This document shows positions 44,911 to 60,771 of a DNA stretch of 64,000 bases, piece by piece. The first letter of the stretch is position 1; the number at the start of each line of letters is the position of its first letter. The notes under the pieces are model-generated. The model had not been told where the DNA came from. It saw nothing but the letters and a program-made list of their open reading frames with translations, and did not search any database. The stretch is taken from contig CP069394.1 in the NCBI GenBank assembly GCA_016887485.1, forward strand, positions 930,001 through 994,000. The letters run 5' to 3'. The position numbers and the translations under genes were made by a program. The DNA is from Chloroflexota bacterium. Lineage in GTDB: Bacteria > Chloroflexota > Anaerolineae > Anaerolineales > Anaerolineaceae.

Positions 44911-46407
44911 CTATGGAATATTGATAGATGTCAGGATGGCCGGAAATACTGTCTGGGCATCATCCCAGTAACCGCCATCAATCCCGCCATACCAAACAAT
45001 CTCAAGCATTTTCCCATCATGAGGCACCATCGTAACACCACATTTTATGGCTGTCCCCATGGAATTCATACCATCACAAACTTTTGTAGGGTATTCAACA
45101 CCCATAATTGTGATCGGATCGCCATCTGAGACTGTGAGGGTTGGGAAAATTTCCTGAGTAACTTCCCAATCTGCCAGCATTTGAGCAGAATCTGTTCCTT
45201 CCTCAACCCAGATGACAACCGCAGACATCCAGTCTGCTGAATTCAGAAAAATACCCTGACCAACCCATGGTTCCATCGGTTCTTGCCAGGTTGAAGGAAA
45301 AGATACAGTCAAGTTATAGGTCTCGCTGGAAAGGGTGGAAACACCCTTTATCGATTCCAAGATTCCGGTAAAGATCGTCTGTCCATTAGTCCAATAATCT
45401 CCATCCGTTCCGGCATACCATAAGATTTCCAAGAGTTTGCCATTATATGGAACAAAGGTTACACCACAATTGATCGCCGATCCCATCGAATTGAAGCCAT
45501 CACCGGATTTCGTTGGATACTCTGCGCCTAATACCGAGACCGGATCGCCATCAGTAACCGTTAGGGTTGGGAAAATGTCCTGGGTGGATTCCCAATCAGC
45601 CAAAGCCTGATTCGCATCAGTGCCCTCAATGACCCAAACAATCACAGAAGTCATCCAATCTTCTGAATTCAACCACAGACCTTCGCCTACCCACGGAGCG
45701 ATCGGTTCTTGCCATTCAGGAGGATAAGATACATACAGTCCATATTCAGCGCTGTTGAAAGAGAGCCATTCTGCGGTTGCGACTGGCGGAATATAAGCAA
45801 AATCATCAGCCGGGGCTATAAGAGAATTTGTAATCGCGAGTAAGGTTGGTTTCGCCTGCTCCCAAGTTTCTGAGGGGGCGTAAACACTAATATGAACCAT
45901 ATTCATACCATACGGAACTATTGCATCAATACCAGAGTAATTTGCACTGGCCATGGTATTGAAGCCTGTCCACGAGAAAGCATCAAATTCGGTGTCAAAT
46001 ACAGTGAGCTTTTCGGAGCTTATAATAGCAGCGTCCGTGAAACCAGCAGAACCTGCAACCAGAGCTTCTTCAATTGCAGTCAATTCCTCTTCCAGAGATT
46101 GTTGGTCTTCATAAAGAAGATTAAAAGCCGCGATGTTCATCCAATCCGAACTCATGGCAGTGATACCAATACTGCCTGAGTTTGAAATTGGCATCCACCC
46201 CTCAGGATATTGGATTGTCATCCCGGAAACTGGATCTTCGAAAGTCAAAGTCAATTCTTCGGCTACCGGTGTTTCAAGAACCTCAGTTTCTTCTACAATT
46301 TCCGATTCTGTAGGCATTACCGTTTCCGTTACCTCAGTTCCAGGAGTACAACCGGAAACAAAAGCAATACAGATCAGCAAACAAACTAACTTGTACAAAT
46401 TTTTCAT
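44911..46407 (-). CDS. Lipoprotein with three homologous extracytoplasmic domains, function unknown
   Basis: 498 aa. Signal peptide and lipobox VSGC (Cys20), then an acidic Glu/Thr linker. Three related domains follow, each starting with a beta strand and Tyr-Pro: MTIQYPEGWMP (about 62), YGLYVSYPPEWQEP (about 220) and YNLTVSFPSTWQEP (about 365). The second and third are about two-thirds identical by eye across about 130 residues (both have PWVG.G..LNS.DWM, EGTD, DIFPTLTV.DGDP, EYPTK), so they come from a recent duplication. The fold resembles PsbP/DUF1795-type domains. It is read from a promoter flanked by two LacI-type operators and probably belongs to the carbohydrate regulon; glycan binding is a guess. 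Confidence 0.75.
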   Translation of the reverse strand: MKNLYKLVCLLICIAFVSGCTPGTEVTETVMPTESEIVEETEVLETPVAEELTLTFEDPVSGMTIQYPEGWMPISNSGSIGITAMSSDWMNIAAFNLLYEDQQSLEEELTAIEEALVAGSAGFTDAAIISSEKLTVFDTEFDAFSWTGFNTMASANYSGIDAIVPYGMNMVHISVYAPSETWEQAKPTLLAITNSLIAPADDFAYIPPVATAEWLSFNSAEYGLYVSYPPEWQEPIAPWVGEGLWLNSEDWMTSVIVWVIEGTDANQALADWESTQDIFPTLTVTDGDPVSVLGAEYPTKSGDGFNSMGSAINCGVTFVPYNGKLLEILWYAGTDGDYWTNGQTIFTGILESIKGVSTLSSETYNLTVSFPSTWQEPMEPWVGQGIFLNSADWMSAVVIWVEEGTDSAQMLADWEVTQEIFPTLTVSDGDPITIMGVEYPTKVCDGMNSMGTAIKCGVTMVPHDGKMLEIVWYGGIDGGYWDDAQTVFPAILTSINIP

Positions 46408-46644: not shown

Positions 46645-47655
46645 ATGTCCACAATTTATGATGTCGCCAAGGAGGCCGGTGTTTCCATAGGCACAGTCTC
46701 ATATGTGATCAATAAATCCAAAAAGGTCCGCCAGGAGACTGTTGAACGCGTCGAAGAGGCCATGCGGAAGCTGAACTATCAACCTTCTGCTTCTGCAAAA
46801 GCTCTGGCATTAGGCCGATCAGATATCATTTCTCTCACTTACCCCAGCAACCTGATTGATTTCCAAATGGTTCTAAACTCTTTTGCAATTGCTATTGGAA
46901 ACGTACTCGAGGAAACCGATTTCCGACTGACAATCCTGCCCCTCCCCAATGCAACAGAGTTACAAACCCTTGAAGCCAGTGTCCAGGCCCGGATGATGGA
47001 TGGTGTAATCCTACTCAACACCCTCCTCCATGATAAGCGAGTGGATTATCTCAAATCCGCAGACCTGCCCTTTGTGATGATTGGACGCTGCCTGGATAAC
47101 ACCGGACTTTATTACGTTGATGCAGACATTAAAGCTGCTGCTCGGTTACAGGTCGAACATCTCGTCAAATTGGGACACCGAAAGATTTCTTATATTGGCT
47201 ACCAGGCAATGGATGAGAACCTCAGCAGTGTCGGATACCACCTCCAAAATGCGTTCCGTGAAGCTCTACAGGATTTCGGGTTGCCGGTCGATGATTGCTT
47301 TTTCATCAAATCTTGCCAACCAGAAGAAATTGCATATGAACTCGAGCTCCTTCTCAAATCTCCAAACGCCCCAACCGCAGTATCCGGTGCATATGAGGCA
47401 GCCGTGATGGGTGTTTTGAAAACAACAGCAAAACTTGGTATGAGCGTTCCAGACGACCTGGCAATCATCGGTTATGCGGATAGTCCACTTTACCCAATGC
47501 TTACACCGCCTATTACTGTCGTTTTCGACCAGATCATGAGCCTGGGACGTATGGCCGCCGATATGTTGCTGACACTAATTGACGGTAAAGAACCAAAAGA
47601 ACCACAAATCCTTCTCAAGCCCTGTCTAGTTCCTCGTGCATCAACAGGAGAATAA
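46645..47655 (+). CDS. LacI-family transcriptional repressor of the glycan locus
   Basis: 336 aa. N-terminal LacI headpiece: STIYDVAKEAGVSIGTVSYVINKSKKVRQETVERVEEAM with the hinge LNYQPSASAKALA; then a periplasmic-binding-protein-like effector domain (for example DGVILLNTLLHD, LVKLGHRKISYIG, DLAIIGYADSPLYPMLTPPITV). Autoregulation is expected through O3, and O1/O2 link it to the lipoprotein gene. The sugar-uptake and glycosidase genes follow on the same strand from 47731, 75 bp downstream, without a terminator between, so the operon may be read from the regulator promoter. The effector is unknown, probably a mono- or disaccharide from the glycan. Confidence 0.92.
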   Translation: MSTIYDVAKEAGVSIGTVSYVINKSKKVRQETVERVEEAMRKLNYQPSASAKALALGRSDIISLTYPSNLIDFQMVLNSFAIAIGNVLEETDFRLTILPLPNATELQTLEASVQARMMDGVILLNTLLHDKRVDYLKSADLPFVMIGRCLDNTGLYYVDADIKAAARLQVEHLVKLGHRKISYIGYQAMDENLSSVGYHLQNAFREALQDFGLPVDDCFFIKSCQPEEIAYELELLLKSPNAPTAVSGAYEAAVMGVLKTTAKLGMSVPDDLAIIGYADSPLYPMLTPPITVVFDQIMSLGRMAADMLLTLIDGKEPKEPQILLKPCLVPRASTGE

Positions 47656-47730: not shown

Positions 47731-48969
47731 ATGAAAGTAAAAATCTTGTTATTAAGAGTTTTCATGATTGTAGGTGTTTTATTGGTAGCCTTTTCTCTAC
47801 CGGCATGCAGGCCCCAGGAGTCTGAGAATATTATTCTCTGGACCTATCTATCCACCCAACAGGAAATGGAAACCTTGCAGAATGTTGTGGACACCTGGGC
47901 AGCTGAAACCGGCAATACCGTAGAGGTGATTCAATACCCGTATTTTGAAATGTTAGGTAAGGTCGAAACAACCTTCCCAGCTGGAGAGGGTCCTGACCTG
48001 TTTGAGTATCCCCACACCAACGTCGGGATTTGGTCTGAGGCAGGATTGATCGCTCCTTTGCCGGATAATGCCTTGAGCGAAGAGGAACTCGCAAATTACC
48101 AGATCAGTGGCTTGAACGCATTTACCACCGCCAATACTTTGTATGGAATCCCTCAAATCGCCGACACAGTGATCATGTTGTACAACAAAGCACTGGTCTC
48201 AGATCCTCCAGAGACCATGGAAGAACTGGTCATTATGGCCCATCAGTTAACCACCGATGATATTTACGGATTTTTACTTCTCGACGATAATGTTTGGTTC
48301 AGCTGGGGATTCATTAGTGGTTATGGCGGGTATATCTTTGGCGAGCAAGAAGGCTCTTATAACCCAAACGATATCGGTGTTTTTAGCAAAAATACTGCGG
48401 ATGGCATGGATTATTTAATGACCCTTCGCAATGAGGAAGGTCTGATCCCAACGGATCTCGATTGGAATGTGATCACTGGCAAATTTACTGAGGGTAAAGT
48501 GGCCATGATGTTCATGAATGCCAACCAGGCAAGTATCTATGAAGAAGCGGGCATTGACGTTGGAATTGCGGTCCTGCCCCAATTACCCAACGGTGAAATG
48601 CCTCATCCAATGATCAATTTTCACGGTTGGGGTGTAAATCCCTATAGCCAGAAGCAGGAAGCAGCCGCTCAGCTAGCGGTCTATCTCGGTGCGAACCTGC
48701 CTGTCTCGCTATTTGAAGCCTCAAACGGGAATATCCCTGTCCGGAGTGATGTTTTGACTGATCCTCTGATTGCCAATAACCCCGACGCAATCGCGGCTGT
48801 TCAGCAGGTCGGATACGGTCAACCGGTTCCCAATATCTCCGAAATGAGCCTGGCGTGGACACCATTGGACAATGCCTTCAAGCTAGTTGCCCGTGGCGAG
48901 GAAAGTACAGTTCAGGCACTCATGGAAGCATCCGAAGCCATTAGGCAAGCAATTGAAAACCAGGAATAA
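47731..48969 (+). CDS. Sugar ABC transporter substrate-binding lipoprotein (MalE-like, SBP_bac_1)
   Basis: 412 aa. Signal peptide with lipobox LPAC (Cys about 26). Family-1 features: IILWTYLSTQQEMETLQNVV, FPAGEGPDLFEYPHTNVG, NTLYGIPQIADTVIMLYNKAL, FTEGKVAMMFMNANQ and MINFHGWGVNPYSQKQEAA. This group binds malto-, cello- or galacto-oligosaccharides. RBS AGGAGAG precedes ATG. It is the first structural gene of the operon, followed by two MalF/MalG permeases; a weak AAAACGCTTT half-site-like palindrome lies upstream at about 47665. Confidence 0.9.
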   Translation: MKVKILLLRVFMIVGVLLVAFSLPACRPQESENIILWTYLSTQQEMETLQNVVDTWAAETGNTVEVIQYPYFEMLGKVETTFPAGEGPDLFEYPHTNVGIWSEAGLIAPLPDNALSEEELANYQISGLNAFTTANTLYGIPQIADTVIMLYNKALVSDPPETMEELVIMAHQLTTDDIYGFLLLDDNVWFSWGFISGYGGYIFGEQEGSYNPNDIGVFSKNTADGMDYLMTLRNEEGLIPTDLDWNVITGKFTEGKVAMMFMNANQASIYEEAGIDVGIAVLPQLPNGEMPHPMINFHGWGVNPYSQKQEAAAQLAVYLGANLPVSLFEASNGNIPVRSDVLTDPLIANNPDAIAAVQQVGYGQPVPNISEMSLAWTPLDNAFKLVARGEESTVQALMEASEAIRQAIENQE

Positions 48970-48974
48970 AAACC

Positions 48975-49889
48975 GTGAAACGCCGAATTACGCCATACAT
49001 GTTTATGCTGCCTGGCCTCGTGGCCATCGGAGCCGTGACTTTAATCCCCGTATTGACCAGCATATACTTTGCGTTCACTAATTACTCTACCAAACACCTA
49101 TTTGATTATGAGTTTGTATGGTTCAACAACTTCAAACGCATCCTTTTCGGGATTGACCAAAGCAACTTCCTGACTGTTTTGTCATGGACGCTCGTTTGGA
49201 CAGTGATTACCACCCTTCTGGATTTCGTGGTTGGATTAGTTCTGGCCATCCTCCTCAACAACCCAACATTGAAAGAGCGAAACCTTTATCGCACAATTCT
49301 GATCTACCCCTGGGCGTTACCAGCCACACTGACAGTGATGGTTTGGGCGGGTCTATTAAACAGTAGTTTCGGACCGGTGAACCAGCTCCTCGCAGCTTTC
49401 AACATATCTACAATCCCCTGGCTGACCGATCCCTTCTGGGCGCGCCTTTCTTGTATCATAGTCAACTTGTGGCTGGCTTACCCATACCAGATGTCAGTTT
49501 GCCTTGGTGCGCTGCAGAGCATAGATCCAACTCTGAATGAGGCCGCCGCTATCGACGGGGCTACTAAATGGCAAATCTTTCACCGAATCACAATGCCCCT
49601 CCTTCGATCAGCTACACTGCCTTTACTGGTTATCTCATTCGCCGCGAATTTTTCCGGTTTTGGTGTAATTTACTTGCTTACAGGTGGTGGACCGATTACA
49701 AGCATTGATCCCCGAGCTCCCGGAGCGACAGATTTACTTTCCACATGGATGTATAAACTGGTGATGGGTGACGTTTCCAAGTTGTATGGCGTCGCCTCAG
49801 CAATTGGGATTATTATCTTCATCTTCGTCGGGGGCTTGACCCTGATTAATTCATTCATGACAGGCGCTTTCAGGCAGGTGAAAGAATGA
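48975..49889 (+). CDS. Sugar ABC transporter permease (MalF/UgpA-like)
   Basis: 304 aa with six transmembrane helices (YMFMLPGLVAIGAVTLIPV opening) and the EAA loop NEAAAIDGATKWQIFHRITMPLL. First of the two channel subunits, 5 bp after the binding-protein gene. Its stop overlaps the next ATG (ATGA). Family assignment is firm; the cargo follows from the binding protein and is an oligosaccharide. Confidence 0.92.
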   Translation: MKRRITPYMFMLPGLVAIGAVTLIPVLTSIYFAFTNYSTKHLFDYEFVWFNNFKRILFGIDQSNFLTVLSWTLVWTVITTLLDFVVGLVLAILLNNPTLKERNLYRTILIYPWALPATLTVMVWAGLLNSSFGPVNQLLAAFNISTIPWLTDPFWARLSCIIVNLWLAYPYQMSVCLGALQSIDPTLNEAAAIDGATKWQIFHRITMPLLRSATLPLLVISFAANFSGFGVIYLLTGGGPITSIDPRAPGATDLLSTWMYKLVMGDVSKLYGVASAIGIIIFIFVGGLTLINSFMTGAFRQVKE

Positions 49890-50779
49890 AGACAACAACT
49901 CTTTCAATATTAACAAATAAAGAACAACCAAAAAAGGTCCGCTCAAGAAGACGATGGGACCAGGCCATAAAATTAAACTTTACCCGGCTGATTCTGGTGA
50001 TCGCATGTTTATTGGTACTATTTCCAGCAATCTGGCTGGTGATGGCCTCATTTTCTGCTGGAACCAGTCTATACAGCAGCAGTTTGATTCCGCAGAAAAT
50101 CACTCTCGACAATTATTTAAACCTGTTCAGTGGTATTGATTTTCTGATGTGGATGAAAAATTCACTGATCATTTGTACCTGTTCCAGCACCTTGACACTG
50201 TTCTTTACGACAACAATGGCTTTCGCTTTCTCCCGGTTTCGTTTTCTCGGTCGTCGTGTGGGTTTGTTATTTTTAATCCTGATTCAGATGTTCCCTGCTG
50301 TTATGAGCATTGTCGCGATTTTCCGTCTCCTTCAAGTTCTGCACCTTCTAGACTCACAATTAGGATTGATCCTTATTTATGGCGGTACAGGAATTGCCTT
50401 CAGCACCTATCTCCTTAAAGGCTTTATTGACTCCCTTCCAAAGGAAATTGATGAATCCGCTTACATTGATGGGGCTTCACACTGGCAGGTGTTTACCCGA
50501 ATAATCCTGCCCTTGGCCTCTCCCATGCTGGCTGTTGTTTTCTTATTCAGCTTTATTGGTTTCTACCAGGAATATTTAATTGCCAGTGTTGTACTTTCCA
50601 GCCCGAATCTACGTCCGATCGCCCTGGGTCTGCGATTCTTCATTAACGGTAATTACGCTCAAAATTGGACAGGCTTTGCGGCTGCCTCCATAGTCGCTTC
50701 ACTGCCAGTCATGATTATTTTCTTTGTCTTGCAACGTTATCTGATAACAGGATTAACTCGCGGGGCTTTAAAAGGCTAA
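49886..50779 (+). CDS. Sugar ABC transporter permease (MalG-like)
   Basis: 297 aa, about six transmembrane helices, starting after a basic N-terminus (NKEQPKKVRSRRRWDQ). The EAA loop is DESAYIDGASHWQVFTRIILPLA, and the end LQRYLITGLTRGALKG is the standard MalG tail. It pairs with the MalF-like gene. No MalK/MsmX ATPase gene follows within the operon, so the ATPase must be shared and encoded elsewhere, as is common for this transporter class. Confidence 0.92.
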   Translation: MKTTTLSILTNKEQPKKVRSRRRWDQAIKLNFTRLILVIACLLVLFPAIWLVMASFSAGTSLYSSSLIPQKITLDNYLNLFSGIDFLMWMKNSLIICTCSSTLTLFFTTTMAFAFSRFRFLGRRVGLLFLILIQMFPAVMSIVAIFRLLQVLHLLDSQLGLILIYGGTGIAFSTYLLKGFIDSLPKEIDESAYIDGASHWQVFTRIILPLASPMLAVVFLFSFIGFYQEYLIASVVLSSPNLRPIALGLRFFINGNYAQNWTGFAAASIVASLPVMIIFFVLQRYLITGLTRGALKG

Positions 50780-50837
50780 CTGATAAATCATGATCAAATC
50801 TTTTATATTGTTGATTACCAGCCATTAAGGAGATTGC

Positions 50838-51917
50838 ATGTTCAACGAAATCCATTATTACAAACCAAATCTGGAGGAAGTGATCCAACGATATATGGAT
50901 CTTTATGCCGCCACAGGGCCCGGCCATGCAATTATTTACACCATCCCCACAATGCAACAGGGAGAACCGGTTCCCCCGTTAAATACGATTGATTTTGACA
51001 ATGACATGGAAGACTATCTTGATCTTTGTCTGAGAAATTTTCGCAGTTGGCTGGAAGTAACTCGCGAGTTACCTGATGATCTGATCCCATCCTTTGGCCC
51101 AAACTTCGGGATAGGTGATTATAGCGGTTTTATCGCTGGAGATGTGGTTTTTACAAAAGATACTTCATGGGCGGCACCTATACTTGAATCCCTGGATGAT
51201 ATCGACAATCTGCACTTGAGTGAAGACAATTATTGGGTGCAGATGATGGATCGTGCCATGACTCATCTGATGACCAAGACTGCCTCCTCCCCCATTCCCC
51301 TTGTCCGAGGTTACTATTCGCCTTTGGATATGGCTCATGCTCTTCGAGGAGAAAAACTCTTTACGGATTTCATGGACGAACCGGAAAAGGTCCATCGTTT
51401 GATGGCATTCTGCGCGCAAGCAATCATTTGGCAAGCCAGCCGTATCCGTGCGATCCATGGTCTATATTGGGGTGGGAATATTGCAGGAGCCTGGCTCAAC
51501 CCGGGAACCATCTGCATGTCAGAAGATATCGCCTGCATGATCTCACCGCGGTTATATGCTCAATTTGCCCGTCCGTATACCCAGCAGGTGATCGACGCTT
51601 TCGGTTATGGCCAAATTCACACGCATTCACTGGGAGTCCAGGTGATCCCGGAAATAAGCCAACTACGAAATCTGCTTGGCATCCAGATTGCCGAAGATCC
51701 AAACACCCCTCGCACCGTTACACGACTTGACTGGTTGCTTCCCCGTTCTCACAACATTCCCTTAAATGTTCACTTCACGCATGAAGAAGTAAGAGAGTTG
51801 TACGATGAGATCACCAGTGAGTACAACATCATCTTTGCAGTGATGGATGTAGAAATTGCTGAAGGTCAGGATCTGATTAAATGGGTTCGTTCCCATAATA
51901 AACCACAGCGTGGATAA
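50838..51917 (+). CDS. URO-D-superfamily protein, putative substrate-specific methyltransferase (copy A)
   Basis: 359 aa. It has the (beta/alpha)8 URO-D-fold pattern also used by MtaA, CmuA and O-demethylase methyltransferases: YYSPLDMAHALRGEKLFTDF, EPEKVHRLMAFCAQAI, CMSEDIACMISPRLYAQFARPYTQQVIDAFG and IHTHSLGVQ. The catalytic zinc HxC...C of MtaA is absent here (IHTHS instead), and heme-synthesis HemE residues are not obvious, so it is not a uroporphyrinogen decarboxylase. Similar to the next gene across its length (about 30% by eye). It starts 58 bp after the MalG-like gene. I infer a methyl-donor-specific methyltransferase or a sugar-related enzyme; this is not proven. Confidence 0.75.
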   Translation: MFNEIHYYKPNLEEVIQRYMDLYAATGPGHAIIYTIPTMQQGEPVPPLNTIDFDNDMEDYLDLCLRNFRSWLEVTRELPDDLIPSFGPNFGIGDYSGFIAGDVVFTKDTSWAAPILESLDDIDNLHLSEDNYWVQMMDRAMTHLMTKTASSPIPLVRGYYSPLDMAHALRGEKLFTDFMDEPEKVHRLMAFCAQAIIWQASRIRAIHGLYWGGNIAGAWLNPGTICMSEDIACMISPRLYAQFARPYTQQVIDAFGYGQIHTHSLGVQVIPEISQLRNLLGIQIAEDPNTPRTVTRLDWLLPRSHNIPLNVHFTHEEVRELYDEITSEYNIIFAVMDVEIAEGQDLIKWVRSHNKPQRG

Positions 51918-51920
51918 GAA

Positions 51921-52994
51921 ATGAAATACCGTCCCGATCTGGATGTAGTTGTAGATCGCTACCAACAACTTTATCAAGCCAAGGAGCCCGGTTCTATCCT
52001 TGTGCATGTTTTTGTTCCTCCCGCGGGGAGCGTTCCATATGACTTGCGTGATTATCAATTCCCTGATCTCGCTGAGAACGCCCGTTATCTGCAAGCCTAT
52101 ATCAATAATCGCATCTGCTTTCTAAAAGGTAGGCTTGGCGTGTTGGATGATTATGTGCCGGATATTTATATCCATCACGGTATCGCTGCACAGAGTGCAT
52201 ATATCGCCGGCAGGCCAATAATGGGAGAAGATACGAGTTGGTCCGAACCGGTCATCCGTGATTGGAAAGACATCGAATCGTTGTCAGTGTCCTCAGAGAA
52301 CCCCTGGTTCCGCCTCCTTCGCCATACAGCGGAGGTCTTCGCCGAGGACCTGGGTGGGCAGGTCGGCTTACCCACTTTCTATCATTATTCTCCGTTGGAC
52401 ATGGCGAATGCCTTACGCGGCAATCAACTATTCTTTGATTTTTCCGACGCTCCGGAACAGGTTGAACGTTTATTGGATTTCTGTACACACGCGGTCATCT
52501 GGCTTGAAGATCAACTCTGGCCAATTTGTGGAGACCTCCTGGGAGGCGCTCCCCTATGGGGTAGCTGGGTTCCGGGCCATGCCCTGATGATGTCAGAAGA
52601 TATCGCAGATCTGTGCAGGGCAGAGTATTACCCAAATTGGGCTGCCCCCTGGACCCAGCAAGTGATTGATCACTTTGACGGTGCTCTGATCCACAACCAT
52701 TCAAAAGGGCTACACCTCCAAAAGCAGATTGGAAGCCTGCAAAATCTTCGAATTTTACAAGTTTCTGAAGACCCGAATCAGCCCCGTCCTTTCGATCATC
52801 TTGAAGGACTGCTAAGGGAAGCTGGCGATGCCGCCCTGCAAATATATTGCCGTCCCGAAGAAGTTGGAAGAGCTGTCGCAATTTCCCAATCCGTGCCGGG
52901 AAAGTTGATTTTACAGACGAGCGCTCCTGATGTTACAACAGCGAATGACATCGTACATTATGTACGTGAACACTCAAGGATTAAGGCAGATTAA
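51921..52994 (+). CDS. URO-D-superfamily protein, putative substrate-specific methyltransferase (copy B)
   Basis: 357 aa, paralog of the preceding gene: shared DTSW(S/A)EP, YSPLDMA(N/H)ALRG, SEDIADLCRAEYYPNWAAPWTQQVIDHF, and ALIHNHSKGLHL. Again the MtaA-type HxC zinc site is missing. It starts 3 bp after copy A, so the two could form a heteromer or handle different substrates. Two such genes directly downstream of a sugar importer and beside glycosidases suggest that the substrate is sugar-derived. Function remains inferred. Confidence 0.73.
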   Translation: MKYRPDLDVVVDRYQQLYQAKEPGSILVHVFVPPAGSVPYDLRDYQFPDLAENARYLQAYINNRICFLKGRLGVLDDYVPDIYIHHGIAAQSAYIAGRPIMGEDTSWSEPVIRDWKDIESLSVSSENPWFRLLRHTAEVFAEDLGGQVGLPTFYHYSPLDMANALRGNQLFFDFSDAPEQVERLLDFCTHAVIWLEDQLWPICGDLLGGAPLWGSWVPGHALMMSEDIADLCRAEYYPNWAAPWTQQVIDHFDGALIHNHSKGLHLQKQIGSLQNLRILQVSEDPNQPRPFDHLEGLLREAGDAALQIYCRPEEVGRAVAISQSVPGKLILQTSAPDVTTANDIVHYVREHSRIKAD

Positions 52995-52997
52995 GTT

Positions 52998-54770
52998 ATG
53001 AACGATGATTTTGTTTTCGGGAATACAGCCACGCAAAACGCCACGCCAGGGGCACAAGTAACTAGTAACGGCATCATCCACCGCTCTGCGCGAATGCCGC
53101 TTGCCCCAAAACCTGGCGAACCGGTTCAGTTAACCTTGAAAGTAAATGCGGATCAACATTACGATGCGGCCTGGGTCTATTACACCACAGATGGTAGTGA
53201 TCCTTCGGGACAAACCGGAAAGCCGGCACAGGGAACAGCTCTCACAATGCTTTCTGAAAACACAGCCTGGAATCCTGAGACAAAACACCAAGAGCGATTA
53301 TTTCAGGTTGTCATACCCGGCCAAGAAGCCGGCACGGTTGTTCGATATCGGATTAGCACATACTCCGAGAAACATGGAGAAGTCTTTGCGGATAATGGTT
53401 TGATGTATGGCTACCTTACATCAGATCACACTCCCCCATCCTGGACCCAGGAAGCCATCATTTACCACATTTTTATTGATCGATTTGCCTCAGTGGATGG
53501 TTTCGCAATCGATCCGGATGGCCCACTGGATGGATTTATGGGCGGCTCGTTAAAAGGGATTACAAACCAGTTGGATTACCTTGTGGCCCTTGGCGTCAAT
53601 GTTCTTTACCTCAGCCCCATCTTCACCAGTCCATCCTATCATGGCTATGATGCTGTAAACTATTACGAAATTGAAAACAGGTTGGGAAGCCTTAAAGAGT
53701 TTAAAGAGCTTTTGGACCAGGCACATGCCCGCAACCTGCGAGTGATTTTGGATTTTGTCCCAAACCATTGTTCTGACCACCACCCAAGTTTCCAATCAGC
53801 GATTAGTGACTCATATAGTCCCTACAGAGACTGGTTCACTTTCAACACATATCCTAATGACTTTAAAACCTTTTTTGGTGTACGGTCAATGCCCTGTTTC
53901 AACCTCAGGAATAAGGATACTCGAGATTATATTCTGAACGCTATTCTTTACTGGCTGGATTTTGGTGTGGATGGCTATCGCCTTGACTACGCCATTGGTC
54001 CGTCACCGGACTTTTGGGCTGAACTGAGTCAAGTAGTTCAGAATCGCCATCCGGATGCCTGGGTGTTTGGAGAAGTGGTCGACTCTTTGGATGTGCAGTT
54101 ATCTTTTAATGGGTTGTTGGATGGTGTCCTGGATTTTAAATTGATGGAGGCGCTGAGACAGACATTCGCTTATTGCAATTGGAAGGCCAACGATTTCACA
54201 ACATTCCTGACTCATCATCAAGCCTTTTTCCCTGACCCTTTTAGCCGGCCTTCATTCCTTGATAACCACGATATGGATCGATTTCTGTGGGCTGCTGGCG
54301 GAGAGAAACGGAAGTTAAAACTGGCTGCTCTCTGTCAATTTACATTGAGCGGTGCCCCAATCATATATTACGGAACAGAAATCGGATTATCACAGCGAAA
54401 AAGTGTTACCCAGGAAGACACACGCTTTGGTGTCCTTGAAGAAGCCCGTTTACCCATGCCGGACGCAAAGGATATTGACCTATTAGAATTTTATACGGGG
54501 TTAATTCAATTCCGAAAAGCCAATTTGGCGTGCATTTCCGGAACCTGGACTCTACTGGAGAACAATCCCGAGATCATAGCTTACCGTTGCATCAATGAAA
54601 ACCAGAAAATTGTTGTAGCTTTGAACATAACTCCGCGCGAGCAGACTCTGGTATTAGCAAACAATTGGAATAAACAAGTATTCACTACCAGCCCTGGGAC
54701 AGCATTAATCCAACATGCTGAAACCACGGAAATCCATCTTCCCCCTTTGACAGGGGCAGTACTAAGTTAA
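52998..54770 (+). CDS. GH13 alpha-glucan-acting enzyme (neopullulanase/maltogenic-type)
   Basis: 590 aa, no signal peptide, so cytoplasmic. An N-terminal beta domain (about 20-130) precedes the alpha-amylase barrel. Conserved regions: VILDFVPNH (region I), GYRLDYAI with nucleophile D330 (region II), FGEVVDS with acid/base E359 (III) and LDNHDM with D425 (IV). Domain order and length match cytoplasmic GH13 enzymes such as neopullulanase and alpha-glucosidase. It would split imported malto-oligosaccharide-like glycans. It is preceded directly (3 bp) by the URO-D-type genes. Confidence 0.88.
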   Translation: MNDDFVFGNTATQNATPGAQVTSNGIIHRSARMPLAPKPGEPVQLTLKVNADQHYDAAWVYYTTDGSDPSGQTGKPAQGTALTMLSENTAWNPETKHQERLFQVVIPGQEAGTVVRYRISTYSEKHGEVFADNGLMYGYLTSDHTPPSWTQEAIIYHIFIDRFASVDGFAIDPDGPLDGFMGGSLKGITNQLDYLVALGVNVLYLSPIFTSPSYHGYDAVNYYEIENRLGSLKEFKELLDQAHARNLRVILDFVPNHCSDHHPSFQSAISDSYSPYRDWFTFNTYPNDFKTFFGVRSMPCFNLRNKDTRDYILNAILYWLDFGVDGYRLDYAIGPSPDFWAELSQVVQNRHPDAWVFGEVVDSLDVQLSFNGLLDGVLDFKLMEALRQTFAYCNWKANDFTTFLTHHQAFFPDPFSRPSFLDNHDMDRFLWAAGGEKRKLKLAALCQFTLSGAPIIYYGTEIGLSQRKSVTQEDTRFGVLEEARLPMPDAKDIDLLEFYTGLIQFRKANLACISGTWTLLENNPEIIAYRCINENQKIVVALNITPREQTLVLANNWNKQVFTTSPGTALIQHAETTEIHLPPLTGAVLS

Positions 54771-54822
54771 CAGACATAGGTACAACAAAATAAACTTCTA
54801 TACTTTACGATACAGGAGAACC

Positions 54823-55458
54823 ATGGCACACACACTTGAAATTATTTTTAACGCCATATTAGAAGGAGATCGGGGTGGTGTCACCTCAGGCATCGAAGCT
54901 GCTTTTAAAGATGGCATTGACCCAGCCGTAATATTAAATGAAGGTATGGTTAAAGCCATGTCTGAAGTGGGGCATCGTTTTGAAATTGGTGACTATTTCG
55001 TTCCGGAAATGCTAATCTCAGCCAGGGCCATGCAGGCTGGCTTGAGCCTGTTGCGGCCGAAGTTAAAACAAAACGGGGTTAAATCCCGGGGGAAAGTTGT
55101 GATTGGCACAGTCAAAGGCGACTTGCACGATATCGGTAAAAATCTGGTTTCTATGATGCTTGAAGGAGCCGGTTATGAAATAACAGACCTGGGCGCAGAC
55201 GTTGCGCCTGAGGTTTTTGTTAATGCAGTTCGTTCTGAAGGCCCAGAAATCCTCGCCCTTTCAGCCTTACTCACCACAACCATGCCTTCAATGGAGTCAA
55301 CGATCAAGGCAATCCAGGATGCCGGGCTGCGAGACCATGTAAAGATTATTGTGGGAGGAGCCCCTCTGACCGAGGCTTATGCTCGTGAAATCGGGGCTGA
55401 TGGTTATTCTCCCGACGCCAGCCGAGCAGTGGCCCTTGCGAACTCGCTTTTAGCCTAA
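54823..55458 (+). CDS. Corrinoid (B12-binding) methyl-transfer protein, MtaC/MtbC-like
   Basis: 211 aa: N-terminal helical cap (B12-binding 2 type, about 1-85) followed by the Rossmann-like cobalamin domain with DLHDIG (D100-x-H102-x2-G105; His102 is the lower axial cobalt ligand), then SALLTTTM and GGAPLTEAYA, the other conserved blocks. This is the size and layout of the corrinoid proteins of methanol, methylamine and aryl-ether methyltransferase systems. It accepts a methyl group from a substrate methyltransferase and passes it on. It starts 52 bp after the GH13 gene and is followed by a MtaA-type gene. Confidence 0.93.
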   Translation: MAHTLEIIFNAILEGDRGGVTSGIEAAFKDGIDPAVILNEGMVKAMSEVGHRFEIGDYFVPEMLISARAMQAGLSLLRPKLKQNGVKSRGKVVIGTVKGDLHDIGKNLVSMMLEGAGYEITDLGADVAPEVFVNAVRSEGPEILALSALLTTTMPSMESTIKAIQDAGLRDHVKIIVGGAPLTEAYAREIGADGYSPDASRAVALANSLLA

Positions 55459-55477
55459 TTAATCGAAGGAATTGATA

Positions 55478-56455
55478 ATGAAAATATCCGAAATGTTCCG
55501 TGGCTCATCCAGACGCCTCGTCGCTCCGTTAATGGGATATCCCGGCGCGATTCTGACCAATTCATCGCTTCGACAAAATGGCTTTAATGCAGAGTTGCAC
55601 TATCGATCCATCAGTGCCTTGGTCAACAAATTCCATCCGGATATCATTTTTTCAATGATGGATCTGTCCGTCGAAGCTGGAGCGTTGGGGCTTCAGATTC
55701 GTTACCCACATAACGAATCTCCCTCGATCGAATTTCATCCGGTGCGACAAATAAGTGATTTGGAACATTATCGCGTTCTCGACCCTCTTTGGGACGCCAG
55801 ACTACGATCGTATATTAAGACGATGAGTATGATGTCCCAAAATATTACCTCCTGTGTAAGGGGCGGTTATGTAACGGGACCTTTCACCTTGGCTGGTTTA
55901 TTAATTGGGGCATCCGAAATTGCCATTGCCACCATTGAAAATCCTGAATTGGTTTACGCTACGCTGGAACTAGCCGAAGAAGTTATTACACGCTACGCGC
56001 TTGAACTCGTCCAGGCTGGTGCAGAAGTGATTGCCATATTGGAACCGACCGCCACTTTCCTTTCTCCGTCAAGCTTCAAAGACTTCTCCGGAGTCTTTAT
56101 CGACCGGATAGCTAAGCAGCTTGATAGGGACACTATCCTCCATATATGTGGGAATACAACCCGCCTGATCCCAGCTATGTGTGAAACCGAAGTCCAGGGC
56201 CTTAGTTTGGACACACCGGTCAATATGCTACAGGCAATTAAGCAAATGCCAACTGACATGGCTCTTATTGGTAATATCGACCCGGTCAGGGTTATGGTAA
56301 ACGGTAATCCTGAAGATGTTAAGAAGGCAGTCTGTGATTTGTGCACAGAGTTGGCAGATTATCCCAATTTCATTCTTAGCACAGGCTGTGACATACCCTT
56401 GGAGACCCCTTTAGAAAATATTGCTGCCTTCATGGAGGCAGGACGGGCAAGTTGA
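55478..56455 (+). CDS. MtaA/CmuA-type corrinoid-linked methyltransferase (Zn-binding URO-D fold), copy C
   Basis: 325 aa. Start at ATG 55478, 7 nt after GAAGGA; an upstream in-frame TTG is less likely. The zinc/thiol site HxC (H222, C224 in LHICGNT) and C304 (STGCDIPLET) are those of MtaA/MtbA and CmuA, supporting methyl transfer to or from the corrinoid protein encoded 20 bp upstream. In methanogens this group transfers methyl to coenzyme M; in bacteria to tetrahydrofolate or from a substrate. It overlaps the next gene by 4 bp. Confidence 0.85.
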   Translation: MKISEMFRGSSRRLVAPLMGYPGAILTNSSLRQNGFNAELHYRSISALVNKFHPDIIFSMMDLSVEAGALGLQIRYPHNESPSIEFHPVRQISDLEHYRVLDPLWDARLRSYIKTMSMMSQNITSCVRGGYVTGPFTLAGLLIGASEIAIATIENPELVYATLELAEEVITRYALELVQAGAEVIAILEPTATFLSPSSFKDFSGVFIDRIAKQLDRDTILHICGNTTRLIPAMCETEVQGLSLDTPVNMLQAIKQMPTDMALIGNIDPVRVMVNGNPEDVKKAVCDLCTELADYPNFILSTGCDIPLETPLENIAAFMEAGRAS

Positions 56456-58455
56456 AAAAATTGCAGGTAAAAGAGATGACTCATAAACGGCAACACTACC
56501 ACTCATTATCACCCAATTGTTTCCAGCCAAAAGGCTGGATAGAAGAATTCTGTCGCCGAGACGCAGATGGGATTACAGGAAACCTCAACCTATTATGCGA
56601 GGAATGCTCGAGCGAGATCTTTTTTACGAAAAAGGTTCCAAACGAACATGATGGCTCTTGGGCTTCATGGTGGAATGGTGAATCCGAAGGAAACTGGGCT
56701 GAGGCTTTTATCCGCTTAAGTTACCTTCTTACTGATAAAAAGTTAATGGCTAAAGCGAAAGCTTACCTTGACCATATGGCCGCCTCCCAAGAAGCGGATG
56801 GATACCTTGGCATTTACCAACCTGAGCATCGTTTCAGTTTTGCATGCTCGCGAACTGGAGAATTTTGGACTCAGTCAAGAGTATTGCTGATTCTTCTAGC
56901 CGGATACAAAGCGACAGGGGAAAATAGATACCTCGAAGTTGCCGATTCCCTGGCAAACCGAATTTTATCTGCCTCAAAATTGAGTGGTTCACCCATTTCA
57001 TTCTATGATGTGCCCGAAAAAGACGGCAGCAAATCTCACGGGTTAATGATCATCGAACCTCTCTTGATGCTACATGATCTCACTGGTCGACAGGATGTGA
57101 TCGAGTTCTGTGAAGATCTTTACATAGCTTATTCAACACATGAATCAGACTTCCCAGGAGAAGATTGTCGCTTACCTAATTTACTGGACCCCGCGGTACC
57201 CTTCGTTGGACACGGTCCCCATACATGCGAGCAGTTGCGGATTCCACTCCTGTTGTATAATGCCACCGGGAAAGAGATCTATTCCCAAGCATTTCAAAAC
57301 GGAATCCGAAAACTTCGGGATAATCTAACTTTGTCCGGTTCTTGCAAGTCGGACGAATTTATTGGAGTCCATCCTCTTGATATTTCAATGGATGAGGTTT
57401 CTTTTGAAAATCTCTCCGCTTCTTTGCCACTGCCAACCGCAGGTTATGAATACTGCGCCACTACTGAGTTAGCGAATACATTTTTAGCTGCTCTTGCCAT
57501 AACAGGTGATCCTCAATATGCCGATATGCAGGAATGGTTAGTCTTCAATGCGGCTATGGCTGCAAGGAATCCCGATGGAAAATCCATTCAATACTTAACC
57601 GCAGACAATCTTTTTGCAGCGACCCTAAAAGTGGGCGAAAGATGGGATTATTCTCCAACTCACACTGATGCCGCTGTTTGTTGTGCGCCAAATTCCGGCA
57701 AAGTGATACCAACCCACCTTCTCCATTCTTGGATGCGGGACACAGAAGACAATGCCCTGGTGGCAATGCTTTATGGCCCCTGTGAGTTACGAATCGTAGA
57801 GGGTAATCAGCCAATTACGATCACTGAGTCCACAAATTATCCTTTTGAGAATATCGTTCGCTTTAAGATCAGTGTAATTGACTCGATTCGACTAACAATA
57901 AAATTCAGGGTGCCGCGTTGGGCATCACAAAGTAAATTGATCATAAACAACGAAGAATATCAGACTGAGATTGAGACGGTAAACGAGAGTGGATTTTTGG
58001 TGGTGGATCGACAATGGCAAAATGGCGATGAAATCACCCTTTATATGGAATGGCAGCCTGAAATCCAATTCGCTGTGGACCATTCCGCAGCCATAAGCTA
58101 TGGTCCACTACTATATTGCTTACGCATTCCAGAACAATCCAGCCACACGTTCACCTATCCCCTCAACGGTTTTTACGACACCGATTATACGCCTGCTATG
58201 AATTTTAATTGGGACTATACCTTGCAGCTTGAGAAGGATGGATCGCCCGGGAAAAACATTTCTCTTTTCAAACGACCAATTCATGAAGGAGAATATGTGT
58301 GGGAATATCCACCTGTATGCCTTAGAGCCACGATGTTAACTCAGGCGGCCCAACCCGAAATTGTGTCTCTTGTGCCTATTGGCAGCACAATCCTTCGACG
58401 GACTACTTTCCCCTGGGTTTATCTCCCAGGTAGAGAAAGGGAGAAAACTCAGTGA
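56452..58455 (+). CDS. GH127-type glycosidase (beta-L-arabinofuranosidase-like, DUF1680)
   Basis: 667 aa, no signal peptide; start TTG 56452 overlapping the upstream stop (GGACGG nearby), with ATG 56476 as alternative. It has the GH127 zinc-thiolate site: E333 and C335 (GYEYCATTE) and the pair C410-C411 (AVCCAPNSG), spaced as in the reference enzyme HypBA1 (Glu338, Cys340, Cys417, Cys418). Alpha/alpha barrel repeats (GYLGIYQPEHRFSF, DRQDVIEF) precede, and beta domains follow. GH127/GH146 enzymes release L-arabinofuranose. It sits between two MtaA-like genes in the operon, tying methyl transfer to sugar release. Confidence 0.83.
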   Translation: MKKLQVKEMTHKRQHYHSLSPNCFQPKGWIEEFCRRDADGITGNLNLLCEECSSEIFFTKKVPNEHDGSWASWWNGESEGNWAEAFIRLSYLLTDKKLMAKAKAYLDHMAASQEADGYLGIYQPEHRFSFACSRTGEFWTQSRVLLILLAGYKATGENRYLEVADSLANRILSASKLSGSPISFYDVPEKDGSKSHGLMIIEPLLMLHDLTGRQDVIEFCEDLYIAYSTHESDFPGEDCRLPNLLDPAVPFVGHGPHTCEQLRIPLLLYNATGKEIYSQAFQNGIRKLRDNLTLSGSCKSDEFIGVHPLDISMDEVSFENLSASLPLPTAGYEYCATTELANTFLAALAITGDPQYADMQEWLVFNAAMAARNPDGKSIQYLTADNLFAATLKVGERWDYSPTHTDAAVCCAPNSGKVIPTHLLHSWMRDTEDNALVAMLYGPCELRIVEGNQPITITESTNYPFENIVRFKISVIDSIRLTIKFRVPRWASQSKLIINNEEYQTEIETVNESGFLVVDRQWQNGDEITLYMEWQPEIQFAVDHSAAISYGPLLYCLRIPEQSSHTFTYPLNGFYDTDYTPAMNFNWDYTLQLEKDGSPGKNISLFKRPIHEGEYVWEYPPVCLRATMLTQAAQPEIVSLVPIGSTILRRTTFPWVYLPGREREKTQ

Positions 58456-59447
58456 ATTCCTATGAACGTGTATTTGCCCGTCTTGCTGGGCGTCCAGTGG
58501 ATCGGGTTCCCAACCTGTGTATCTTGATGACCTTTGCGGCTAAATACATCGGCGTCACCTATGACCGATATGTCAGTGATTACCGTTTATTAGTAGATGG
58601 AAACCTGCGCTGTTGTGAAGATTTCAAAATCGACATGTTGAGTGCAATCTCAGATCCTATGCGTGAAGCTCATGGATTTGGCGCGAATGTAATCTTCCCC
58701 TATGATGGTGTTCCTTACGCAAGCGAAGCTTTTATTCAATCAAGGAGCGATCTGAAAAAACTCAAGGTCAAATCACCCGAATCGAGCAAACGGATGGCCG
58801 ACCGTCTTGAAGCAATCCGACTTTTCCATAAAAAAGCCGATGGGCAAATCCCAATCTTGGGTTGGGTTGAAGGTGGATTCGCGGAAGTTTGCGATTTACA
58901 TGACATGTCAGCGGTTATGACCGACCTGATCCAGGAACCTGAGTTAATCAATGACATGCTGGAAATATGTACGGAGCAGGCTATCTTATTTGCTCAGGCA
59001 CAGGTGGCAGCAGGAGCGGATTTCATTGGTATCGGCGACGCAGCTGCCTCTTTGATCGGCCCACGTTTATACAAACAATTCGCATTGCCTTACGAGCAAA
59101 GGATCATTTCAGCGATTCACGAGGCTGGTGCGAAAGCTAAATTGCATATATGCGGTAACATCACATCCATTCTTGATCTCACTATCCAAACAGGAACGGA
59201 TATTCTGGATGTGGATTGGATGGTCGACTTCTCAAAAGCTGTAGCAACCTGCGGAGCCAAGTGTGCTGTTTGTGGAAATTTCGATCCAGTTGCGGTTTTA
59301 TTACAGAGTACTCCTGAAAAAATTAACTCAGCCGTTCAGGATTGCCTGGCCGTGTCCAATCCAAATACAATGATCGCCGCAGGTTGTGAAGTGCCACGCG
59401 ACACTCCAATGGAAAACCTTCAGGCTGTTGCTCTGGCGTTAAAATGA
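58452..59447 (+). CDS. MtaA-type corrinoid-linked methyltransferase (Zn-binding URO-D fold), copy D
   Basis: 331 aa, GTG start at 58452 sharing bases with the previous stop; GGGAGA lies 9 nt upstream. Zinc ligands H232, C234 (LHICGNI) and C312 (AAGCEVPRDTP) are kept. The N-terminus (MNSYERVFARLAGRPVDRVP) is the standard MtaA/HemE-like opening, but the substrate-side residues are those of methyltransferases. A second copy besides 55478 suggests separate jobs: one loading, one unloading methyl groups. Overlaps the next gene (ATGA). Confidence 0.85.
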   Translation: MNSYERVFARLAGRPVDRVPNLCILMTFAAKYIGVTYDRYVSDYRLLVDGNLRCCEDFKIDMLSAISDPMREAHGFGANVIFPYDGVPYASEAFIQSRSDLKKLKVKSPESSKRMADRLEAIRLFHKKADGQIPILGWVEGGFAEVCDLHDMSAVMTDLIQEPELINDMLEICTEQAILFAQAQVAAGADFIGIGDAAASLIGPRLYKQFALPYEQRIISAIHEAGAKAKLHICGNITSILDLTIQTGTDILDVDWMVDFSKAVATCGAKCAVCGNFDPVAVLLQSTPEKINSAVQDCLAVSNPNTMIAAGCEVPRDTPMENLQAVALALK

Positions 59448-60280
59448 AACTCACGCGAACCCTACCTTATTCCACTCAGGGTGATATTCTCGGAACACTT
59501 TATAGATATGAGAATTTCCCTTCCCAACACATTTCTCCACGAAATGTAGATGTTTGGTTTCCAAACGGCTATGCAAATTCCAAGGACGGTTTGCCCGTAA
59601 TTTATATGCATGATGGTCAAAACCTCTTTGATCCATCACTTGCTTTTGGTGGGGTTGATTGGAGCGTAGACGAAGTCATCTCCTCCTTGATCGATGCCAA
59701 TCGCATTCCCCCTGTAATTGTGGTTGGGATATGGAACACTGCGGATCGCTGGGAAGAATATATGCCCCAGAAACCAATGGAACAATCATCAATCATTCGC
59801 ACTCACTTTCGAGAATATTCGAGTGGAGATCCCATTTCTGATCATTACTTAAATTTCCTGGTTGATGAACTTAAACCATTCATTGATAGTACCTATCCCT
59901 CACTGAATGATCGACAGCATACATTTATTATGGGATCGAGCATGGGTGCGCTGGTTTCTCTTTACGCTTTAGAAACCTACCCACTCGTTTTTGGCGGCGC
60001 TGCGTGCATCTCCACCCACTGGTTGGCTGGAATGAGCCCTCTGGTTGATTCTCTTGGGGAAAACTTACCTACACCAGGCAAGCACAGATTCTATTTTGAT
60101 TACGGTACGCTCACACTCGATGAGGGTTACGAACCCTATCAACAGCGGATGGATGAACACCTTGAAAATGCAGGTTATTCAAGAGGAAAAGATTGGTTGA
60201 CTTACAAATTTGAAGGTGCAGCGCATGATGAATATTCTTGGAAGAAGCGTTTATACATTCCACTGGAATTTTTATTATAA
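59444..60280 (+). CDS. Putative carbohydrate esterase (esterase D / Fes family, alpha/beta hydrolase)
   Basis: 278 aa. Alpha/beta hydrolase: nucleophile elbow GSSMGA (IMGSSMGAL; GxSxG), PVIYMHDGQNLFD, VVGIWNT and a late His in EGAAHDEYSW. No signal peptide, so cytoplasmic. The family includes acetylxylan/feruloyl-type and glucuronoyl-like esterases; de-acylation of imported glycans fits the operon. Catalytic Asp cannot be placed with certainty. Last plus-strand gene of the operon; no terminator seen before the convergent cupin gene. Confidence 0.8.
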   Translation: MKLTRTLPYSTQGDILGTLYRYENFPSQHISPRNVDVWFPNGYANSKDGLPVIYMHDGQNLFDPSLAFGGVDWSVDEVISSLIDANRIPPVIVVGIWNTADRWEEYMPQKPMEQSSIIRTHFREYSSGDPISDHYLNFLVDELKPFIDSTYPSLNDRQHTFIMGSSMGALVSLYALETYPLVFGGAACISTHWLAGMSPLVDSLGENLPTPGKHRFYFDYGTLTLDEGYEPYQQRMDEHLENAGYSRGKDWLTYKFEGAAHDEYSWKKRLYIPLEFLL

Positions 60281-60343: not shown

Positions 60344-60754
60344 TTATCCAGAGATAAGTGTTTTTGAATTTTCAACAATGTACTTCTTAGTCGAAACATC
60401 GATATCGATATACTCCGTGTTAGCCAGACCAGTATCCTGATTTTCGACCAAAAGTATTGTTGCATCTAAATCCAAAACACAGGTATGCCAAGTGGCTTTC
60501 TCGACCACATATACCTTATGTGGTTCCATTTTCAAACAAGAAACTCGCCCCAACAGATTTTCACCCTCACCAATAAATAAGACAGCCTCACCATTTAGCA
60601 AGACGAATACTTCATCAGTCTCAAGATGCTTTTCCATTTGTGTGATATTTTCAGGAATCAACTCATCAATAAATCTCAAATAGGCCACCCGCCAATTTCC
60701 AAAATCAACCAGTGGGCGGTATCCCTCACCTTCATAAGTCTCAATTCTCAACAT
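60344..60754 (-). CDS. Cupin-fold protein
   Basis: About 136 aa. Start ATG 60754 chosen because GGAGAG stands 6 nt upstream; an in-frame ATG at 60766 overlaps that site. Single cupin barrel: ETDEVFVLLNGEAVLFIGEG (cupin motif 1, but metal His residues mostly missing) and EKATWHTCVLDLDATILLV (motif 2 with one His). Likely binds a small molecule or sugar rather than iron. Last gene of the GH94-GH3-cupin operon, 17 bp after GH3. Confidence 0.75.
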   Translation of the reverse strand: MLRIETYEGEGYRPLVDFGNWRVAYLRFIDELIPENITQMEKHLETDEVFVLLNGEAVLFIGEGENLLGRVSCLKMEPHKVYVVEKATWHTCVLDLDATILLVENQDTGLANTEYIDIDVSTKKYIVENSKTLISG

Positions 60755-60771
60755 AGTGCTCTCCATTAAAC

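Follow-up and report, generated by a model that had tools for sequence, protein, structure and literature searches.

A candidate corrinoid-dependent route for the demethylation of O-methylated sugars in a glycan-uptake operon of a Chloroflexota bacterium

We describe an operon of a Chloroflexota bacterium that encodes a sugar importer and glycan-cleaving enzymes together with a corrinoid protein and four proteins of the URO-D type (UD1 to UD4). It consists of 11 genes on the plus strand, at positions 47731-60280 of a 64,000-nucleotide window (contig C1, 930001-994000, of a 2.9-Mb genome that is 95.5% complete); positions given without a contig or locus name are those of this window. With moderate confidence we propose that the operon serves to import O-methylated oligosaccharides, to hydrolyse them and to demethylate them by way of the corrinoid protein, and that UD3 and UD4 hand the methyl group to a thiol.

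Results

The genes encode, in this order, a solute-binding protein (SBP), MalF, MalG, UD1, UD2, a glycoside hydrolase of family 13 (GH13), the corrinoid protein, UD3, GH127, UD4 and an esterase. The initial annotation had described importer, GH13, GH127 and esterase genes interleaved with one corrinoid and four URO-D-type genes, and this arrangement was confirmed, with intergenic gaps of 3-58 bp or overlaps of 4 bp. Four of the nine URO-D-type genes found in the genome (seven by profile, plus UD1 and UD2) and one of its two corrinoid proteins of 210-230 residues fall in the operon, so chance clustering is no serious explanation. Glycosidase genes are interspersed among the corrinoid and URO-D genes, and therefore this is not a neighbouring operon mistakenly merged.

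The four URO-D-type proteins are of two kinds at the zinc site. UD1 (50838-51917, 58 bp after malG) and UD2 (51921-52994, gap of 3 bp) carry H-x-H, whereas UD3 (55472-56455, gap of 13 bp) and UD4 (58452-59447, overlap of 4 bp) carry His-Cys-Cys. In the URO-D superfamily, S-methyltransferases are described as binding zinc via His-Cys-Cys and O-methyltransferases as losing one or both cysteines (PMC10418091); the results of that paper make no mention of H-x-H specifically. We aligned the site in 69 URO-D-type proteins from the own genome and the fetched loci, keeping all rows. H-x-H is present in all 22 proteins of the UD1 type and the third cysteine is absent in 21 of them, being present in L160 only, while His-Cys-Cys occurs in all six proteins of the UD3 type and in UD4, and is missing from all 37 rows that belong neither to the UD1 type nor to a ten-member UD3/UD4-like group. 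In a tree of 68 rows, from which a protein with gaps at the site (L060, 17986-19008) was dropped, the UD1 type (99/97) and the UD3 type (99/92) each form a clade of their own. The sister group of UD1 (99/93) consists of proteins from three Clostridia loci (L162-L164), and UD2 groups (95/89) with those of L157, L160 and L161, so that the two fall in two subclades of the UD1 type. As judged from these residues, the operon would so carry two proteins with an O-type site (UD1 and UD2) and two with an S-type site (UD3 and UD4), and H-x-H without the third cysteine might be what is expected of O-demethylases. Some relatives, such as CdmB, are reported to require no zinc (PMC13222342). Two further URO-D-type proteins, from two phyla and in one clade (L038:6144-8593 and L209:8911-11201), have F-C-C instead of H-C-C; both adjoin a CobW-type GTPase and lie near a corrinoid protein.

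UD1 is weakly over the cut-off of the URO-D family PF01208 (29.8 vs. 23.9 bits), and UD2 is called URO-D type from its 33% identity to UD1 and their common clade. A structure model of UD1 built from six sequences (pLDDT 78.8, pTM 0.84) indicates that UD1 has the URO-D fold: all 16 Foldseek matches at E<=0.001 were URO-D or MtaA, and the VIA Z scores were 21.1-18.3 for URO-D and MtaA and 14.8 for the next family, methionine synthase. CdmB (9rui) was not among the structural matches, but the library ends in April 2026, so this is uninformative. When a UD1-centred profile was made from the same six sequences, its best solved match was CdmB, a corrinoid chloromethane methyltransferase (1e-4). PHROGs gave nothing for UD1 or UD2. 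The suggestion that the URO-D genes are related to methyl transfer held clearly for UD3 and UD4, while UD1 and UD2 are tied to it only via fold and remote similarity. We regard UD1 as a candidate sugar methyl ether:corrinoid methyltransferase (methyltransferase I, MT I) and its paralogue UD2 as a candidate second one.

The corrinoid protein (54823-55458, gap of 52 bp) is a stand-alone protein with B12-binding domains (PF02310 and PF02607, B12-binding_2) and the sequence GDLHDIG, which we take to be the DxHxxG motif. Its nearest solved chain is 1y80 (8.7e-60), and it stays below the cut-off of the glycine-betaine MtgC model NF047996 (222 vs. 370 bits). Of its 168 relatives the best 80 were kept; the nearest come mostly from Anaerolineales and other Chloroflexota metagenome-assembled genomes (MAGs). 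The second corrinoid protein of similar size in the genome (L118:9134-9763, C1 at about 1.745 Mb) is 58% identical; its gene adjoins that of a 388-aa protein that is ferredoxin-like at one end, and no methyltransferase was recognised beside it. UD3 and UD4 match PF01208 with 200.6 and 227.3 bits and the MtaA structure 4ay7 with 1.8e-24 and 4.6e-26, respectively. Both align with 4ay7 across LHICGN and the C-terminal GC, which bears out the MtaA zinc site that had been assigned to two of the proteins, and both are under the cut-off of TIGR01463 (152 and 162 vs. 235 bits). They are candidate methyl-corrinoid:thiol methyltransferases.

A reductive activator and a C1 pathway had been named as the partners to be found. 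For the activator there is a single RACo in the genome, an intact 611-residue frame at C1:297758, about 680 kb from the operon. The C1 partner did not appear: no tetrahydrofolate methyltransferase II (MT II) of the MtrH/AcsE type was found, the only Pterin_bind matches of the genome being a DHPS-like frame of 300 residues and MetH. CdhC-type acetyl-CoA synthase had no match in the genome either, and use of the methyl group in the Wood-Ljungdahl pathway was rejected on this ground. The sequences favour a thiol, perhaps homocysteine, as the methyl acceptor, because the zinc site of UD3 and UD4 is His-Cys-Cys, as in thiol methyltransferases, because neither MT II nor CdhC was found, because thiols are reported to act in vitro as traps for the methyl groups of corrinoid demethylases (PMC10946705), and because of two gene rows in Dictyoglomus. 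In these rows (L019:3143-6987 and L023:1896-7033), the genes come in the order corrinoid protein, RACo, UD3-type protein and homocysteine biosynthesis enzyme; the last of these matches PF01837 with 518 bits in L023 and 149 bits in L019, a cut locus, and in L023 a gene for an NIL-ferredoxin protein comes after it. The rows may represent a methionine-forming route, for which the methyl donor is not obvious. The genome search for UD3 relatives had a limit of 1e-50, and a relative in genome G136 (49% identical, L207) has no homocysteine-biosynthesis or similar neighbour.

UD1-type genes were found beside sugar genes in other bacteria. Among 400 genomes of the phylum, the own one counted, a search at 1e-20 matched two, the own genome and one with a weak match (5e-22), and UD1 matched in none of three genomes of the same genus. 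At 1e-30, a search of 391 genomes from Clostridia, the class to which an Emergencia MAG belongs, gave 18 UD1 genes in 15 genomes. Three Clostridia (L162-L164) show the order LacI-UD1-SBP/MalF fusion-MalG-GH13; the stretch of L164 begins too near UD1 to reveal the LacI gene. This is the same gene set as in the window, but the identity of the GH13 proteins is 27-31%, so common descent of the whole LacI/UD1/importer/GH13 set is not demonstrated. The neighbours in the UD2 group are GH94, GH2, GH78-like, sulfatase and GH43 genes in L157 and an importer and GH31 in L160, and in L161 no sugar gene was recognised on 5.6 kb. In ten other Clostridia loci UD1 stands beside a sensor kinase, usually with a response regulator, and several of these loci have MalF/MalG or MFS-like transporters. 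A plasmid of Subdoligranulum variabile carries two clusters, one with the order SBP-MalF-MalG-UD1-URO-D-GH38-URO-D and one with GH2, three URO-D genes, ROK, GH78 and UD1, which has RACo and a UD3-type gene within 9 kb. We also searched a UD1 profile at 1e-15 in 42 genomes or records, namely those behind 42 of the 80 corrinoid loci (two of them in one genome) and the plasmid. It matched in 14 of the 42, at 19 places; except on the plasmid and at one Lentisphaerae place (2.8e-46), these matches are weak, at 5e-16 to 2e-26, and we left them out of the UD1 type.

Some other proteins of the UD1 loci deserve mention. In genome G563, on the strand of a cluster with UD1, GH78 and an apiosidase-like gene, a 559-aa protein (L148:3793-5472) has homocysteine S-methyltransferase and pterin-binding domains without a B12 domain and is a candidate acceptor-side enzyme there. 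Two UD1/GH78 loci encode related proteins of 543-553 aa with no Pfam match (L148:10207-11868 and L096:6624-8255), of which a third relative occurs in L150; this may be a glycan enzyme.

To count the sugar context we called a glycosidase a reference GH when it had its best BLAST match to one of seven glycosidases, a definition that undercounts. Of the 18 UD1 stretches from Clostridia, 10 have an importer or a reference GH, compared with 8 of the 80 corrinoid stretches (p=7e-5). The UD1 stretches are 3-20 kb long, and two short ones (L147 and L152, 3.0 and 5.2 kb) were counted.

Several relatives of the corrinoid protein also lie near sugar genes; neighbours without a Pfam or NCBIfam call were named by BLAST or by eye. 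In G507 (L219) the corrinoid protein is near an L-rhamnose isomerase-like protein (TIGR02635, 489 vs. a cut-off of 531 bits), a rhamnulokinase-like protein (TIGR02627, 424 vs. 528 bits) and three URO-D-like genes. In G563 (L209) an importer, a xylulokinase (499 vs. 380 bits), a URO-D-like gene, CobW and the corrinoid protein lie within 9 kb on both strands. An Anaerolineales MAG (L013) has a relative near GPI, a BadF/ROK-type kinase and two URO-D-like genes, and Peptococcaceae CEB3 (L053) has one near ROK, PfkB, SIS, an importer and URO-D-like genes. In a Chloroflexi MAG (L018) MalF/MalG-like permeases, the corrinoid protein and a URO-D-like gene stand in a row with a presumed SBP that has no SBP Pfam match. 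The relative in G477 (L211) is beside RACo and a methyltetrahydrofolate:corrinoid methyltransferase (NF005719, 374 vs. 259 bits), so that a folate partner is possible elsewhere.

The importer of the operon comprises a MalE-type SBP (47731-48969; PF01547, SBP_bac_1, 120.7 bits), a MalF-type permease (48975-49889, gap of 5 bp) and a MalG-type permease (49886-50779, overlap of 4 bp), the latter two both matching PF00528 (BPD_transp_1). The GH13 protein (52998-54770, gap of 3 bp; PF00128, 214 bits) is a probable cyclomaltodextrinase-like alpha-glucoside hydrolase, which is below the cut-off of the cyclomaltodextrinase model NF041090 (240 vs. 540 bits). In the GH127-family protein (56452-58455, overlap of 4 bp) the catalytic and middle domains pass (PF07944, 66.5 vs. 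24.9 bits; PF20736, 57.8 vs. 24.2 bits); an assignment as aceric acid hydrolase (NF049879) was rejected, since 100.7 bits is far under the cut-off of 950. The last gene (59444-60280, overlap of 4 bp) encodes an alpha/beta-hydrolase esterase with GSSMG (PF00756, 78.9 bits), a putative acyl-group remover. By eye, GH13, GH127 and the esterase have no obvious signal peptides. A LacI-family regulator gene (46645-47655, plus strand; PF00356, PF13377) ends 75 bp 5' of the operon and presumably controls it; a search for RNA control gave no Rfam match at the gathering score in window positions 40000-64000. Downstream, on the minus strand and convergent, are cupin-like, GH3 and GH94 genes (60344-64000), which we excluded from the operon because they continue into a separate locus of the beta-glucan type. 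This minus-strand locus (L125) has GH94 and two GH16 genes (by Pfam) as well as MalG/MalF/SBP-like and LacI-like genes (by eye), of which the GH16 and importer-like genes lie beyond the window. Upstream, 44911-46407 encodes a 498-aa lipoprotein-like protein with internal repeats and no Pfam match.

Discussion

By homology, the importer would take up O-methylated oligosaccharides, and GH13, GH127 and the esterase would cut them in the cytoplasm. UD1 and UD2 may then take the methyl group off a sugar hydroxyl, load it onto the corrinoid protein in its Co(I) form and free an ordinary sugar, a role suggested by the fold, the H-x-H site, the clade and the sugar neighbourhoods; that there are two MT I candidates may mean that each has its own position or its own sugar. 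RACo, encoded elsewhere, would reactivate the corrinoid protein, and UD3 and UD4 would pass the methyl group to a thiol, perhaps homocysteine, at their zinc site. The cell would gain by removing, independently of O2, a substituent that keeps isomerases and kinases from acting. Since GH13 accompanies UD1 in two phyla, we favour a backbone like that of an alpha-glucan; both the substrate sugar and the acceptor thiol are what we infer from the genes. Of the pathway for methylated oligosaccharides first suggested, import, hydrolysis and corrinoid demethylation stand as the best reading, with comparative support, while the feeding of C1 metabolism does not, as neither a tetrahydrofolate MT II nor CdhC was found and UD3 and UD4 are of the thiol type. 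More tentatively, and with our confidence tilting against it, the UD1 type may be an unrecognised family of corrinoid-dependent sugar O-demethylases common to gut Clostridia and this Chloroflexota bacterium; it would be the first oxygen-independent opening of O-methylated glycans, and the methyl group would leave as a thioether (such as methionine) and not as methyl-tetrahydrofolate.

Several observations weigh against corrinoid demethylation by UD1 and UD2. The Pfam search with UD2 gave no match, the PF01208 cut-off not being reached; as single queries against solved structures, UD1 and UD2 found no URO-D relative by sequence; and the match of the UD1 profile to CdmB depends on four remote rows in that profile. 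The three Clostridia with importer and GH13 are so closely related that they amount to a single lineage, the plasmid has no PF02607 match, and a sugar importer or reference glycosidase is absent around 72 of the 80 corrinoid loci. When the 10 of 18 UD1 stretches were compared with corrinoid/RACo stretches from the same genomes (5 of 15, taken from 14 of the 15 UD1-bearing genomes and including sugar loci such as L209), the difference was not significant (p=0.30), so sugar enrichment is unproven against the local background. A similar operon was found elsewhere as regards its sugar part, with UD1 beside importer and GH13 in the three Clostridia and sugar clusters on the plasmid, but a corrinoid or RACo gene is present in 0 of the 18 Clostridia stretches. 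The link to methyl transfer in cis therefore rests on the window operon and on the plasmid (RACo and UD3 only). Genome-wide, 14 of the 15 Clostridia with UD1 have a corrinoid protein of 211-228 residues and 13 have RACo, which is compatible with the link but not discriminating; nine hand-picked genomes without UD1 have a corrinoid protein in seven and RACo in seven.

UD1 and UD2 could instead be URO-D-fold enzymes of another, corrinoid-independent sugar step, with the corrinoid protein and UD3/UD4 as a separate module caught in the operon. We consider this unlikely, although it has the most in its favour among the alternatives: UD1-type genes stand with importers and two-component sensors, and corrinoid or RACo genes are absent from all 18 Clostridia stretches, G535 has no corrinoid-domain match and G442 and G607 have no RACo, the zinc site is altered, and single sequences of UD1 and UD2 match no solved methyltransferase. 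Against it, corrinoid protein and RACo are found in most of the UD1-bearing Clostridia, G535 itself having two RACo matches, the best solved match of the UD1-centred profile is a corrinoid methyltransferase, and in the window a distance of 1.8 kb within a single gene row separates UD2 from the corrinoid gene.

If UD1 and UD2 do feed the corrinoid protein, the methyl group might still go to tetrahydrofolate and be used or oxidised in C1 metabolism. Transfer to tetrahydrofolate is described as usual in bacterial corrinoid demethylation (PMC10418091), and both the methyltetrahydrofolate:corrinoid methyltransferase with RACo in L211 and the homocysteine S-methyltransferase/pterin-binding protein on the strand of the UD1/GH78 cluster in L148 would fit such a route. 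It is nevertheless improbable for this operon, given that a DHPS-like frame and MetH are the only Pterin_bind proteins of a genome without CdhC, and that UD3 and UD4 have a thiol-type site. Still less probable is a methyl-sulfur or methyl-selenium cluster like type 1 mlp that was carried along in a sugar operon. His-Cys-Cys in UD3 and UD4 and the lack of a tetrahydrofolate methyltransferase in the operon are as in type 1, but type 1 clusters are described as encoding their own Ram/RACE protein (PMC10418091), which the operon does not, UD1 and UD2 are without His-Cys-Cys, and the words sugar, glyco and carbohydrate are absent from the main text of that paper. Release of methanol from methyl esters by the esterase that closes the operon, as a supply for the corrinoid system, can practically be dismissed, since MtaB (PF12176) has 0 matches in the genome, on which ground the methanol route (MtaABC) was rejected.

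O-methyl sugars are found in glycans of plants, algae and microbes. If demethylation by the corrinoid protein is confirmed, the opening of O-methylated glycans by gut and sediment bacteria would be explained by a route that is anaerobic and depends on B12; URO-D-family genes next to glycosidases would acquire a function, and glycan use would be tied to the metabolism of B12 and thiols. All parts except the activator lie within 12.5 kb, hence the idea is directly testable.

Among known systems, the aromatic O-demethylases (MtvB/OdmB/VdmB, CdmB) combine a URO-D MT I with a corrinoid protein and MT II. The operon likewise has URO-D-fold MT I candidates by an MtbC/MtgC-like corrinoid protein, with RACo in the genome, and CdmB (PMC13222342) is the enzyme to which the UD1-centred profile led. 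It differs in having no tetrahydrofolate MT II, four URO-D-type proteins, and a sugar importer and glycosidases, and in the remoteness of the similarity of UD1 and UD2. The type 1 mlp clusters of Kountz and Balskus, as described (PMC10418091), share with it one corrinoid protein, several URO-D proteins and the absence of a tetrahydrofolate methyltransferase, whereas the operon has no RACE gene, lacks His-Cys-Cys in two of the four URO-D proteins and carries genes for sugars rather than for sulfur or selenium. UD3 and UD4 have the fold and zinc ligands of the methylcobamide:coenzyme M methyltransferases MtaA and MtbA, below the curated cut-offs. The published enzymatic sugar demethylation that we found is the P450 reaction on 6-O-methyl-D-galactose, a sugar of porphyran, in porphyran-degrading marine bacteria (PMC10033563); 2-O-methyl fucose is likewise reported, from rhamnogalacturonan II. 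The P450 reaction also removes a sugar methyl ether, and in a context with glycoside hydrolases and an esterase, but it is that of a monooxygenase releasing formaldehyde, and the word corrinoid is absent from the text of that paper. In agreement with the initial annotation, which knew of no described pathway of such a kind, the top-ranked papers of the open-access full-text literature, where subscription journals are largely missing, yielded no corrinoid demethylation of O-methyl sugars. The corrinoid chemistry itself is known, and its place in glycan use is what would be new.

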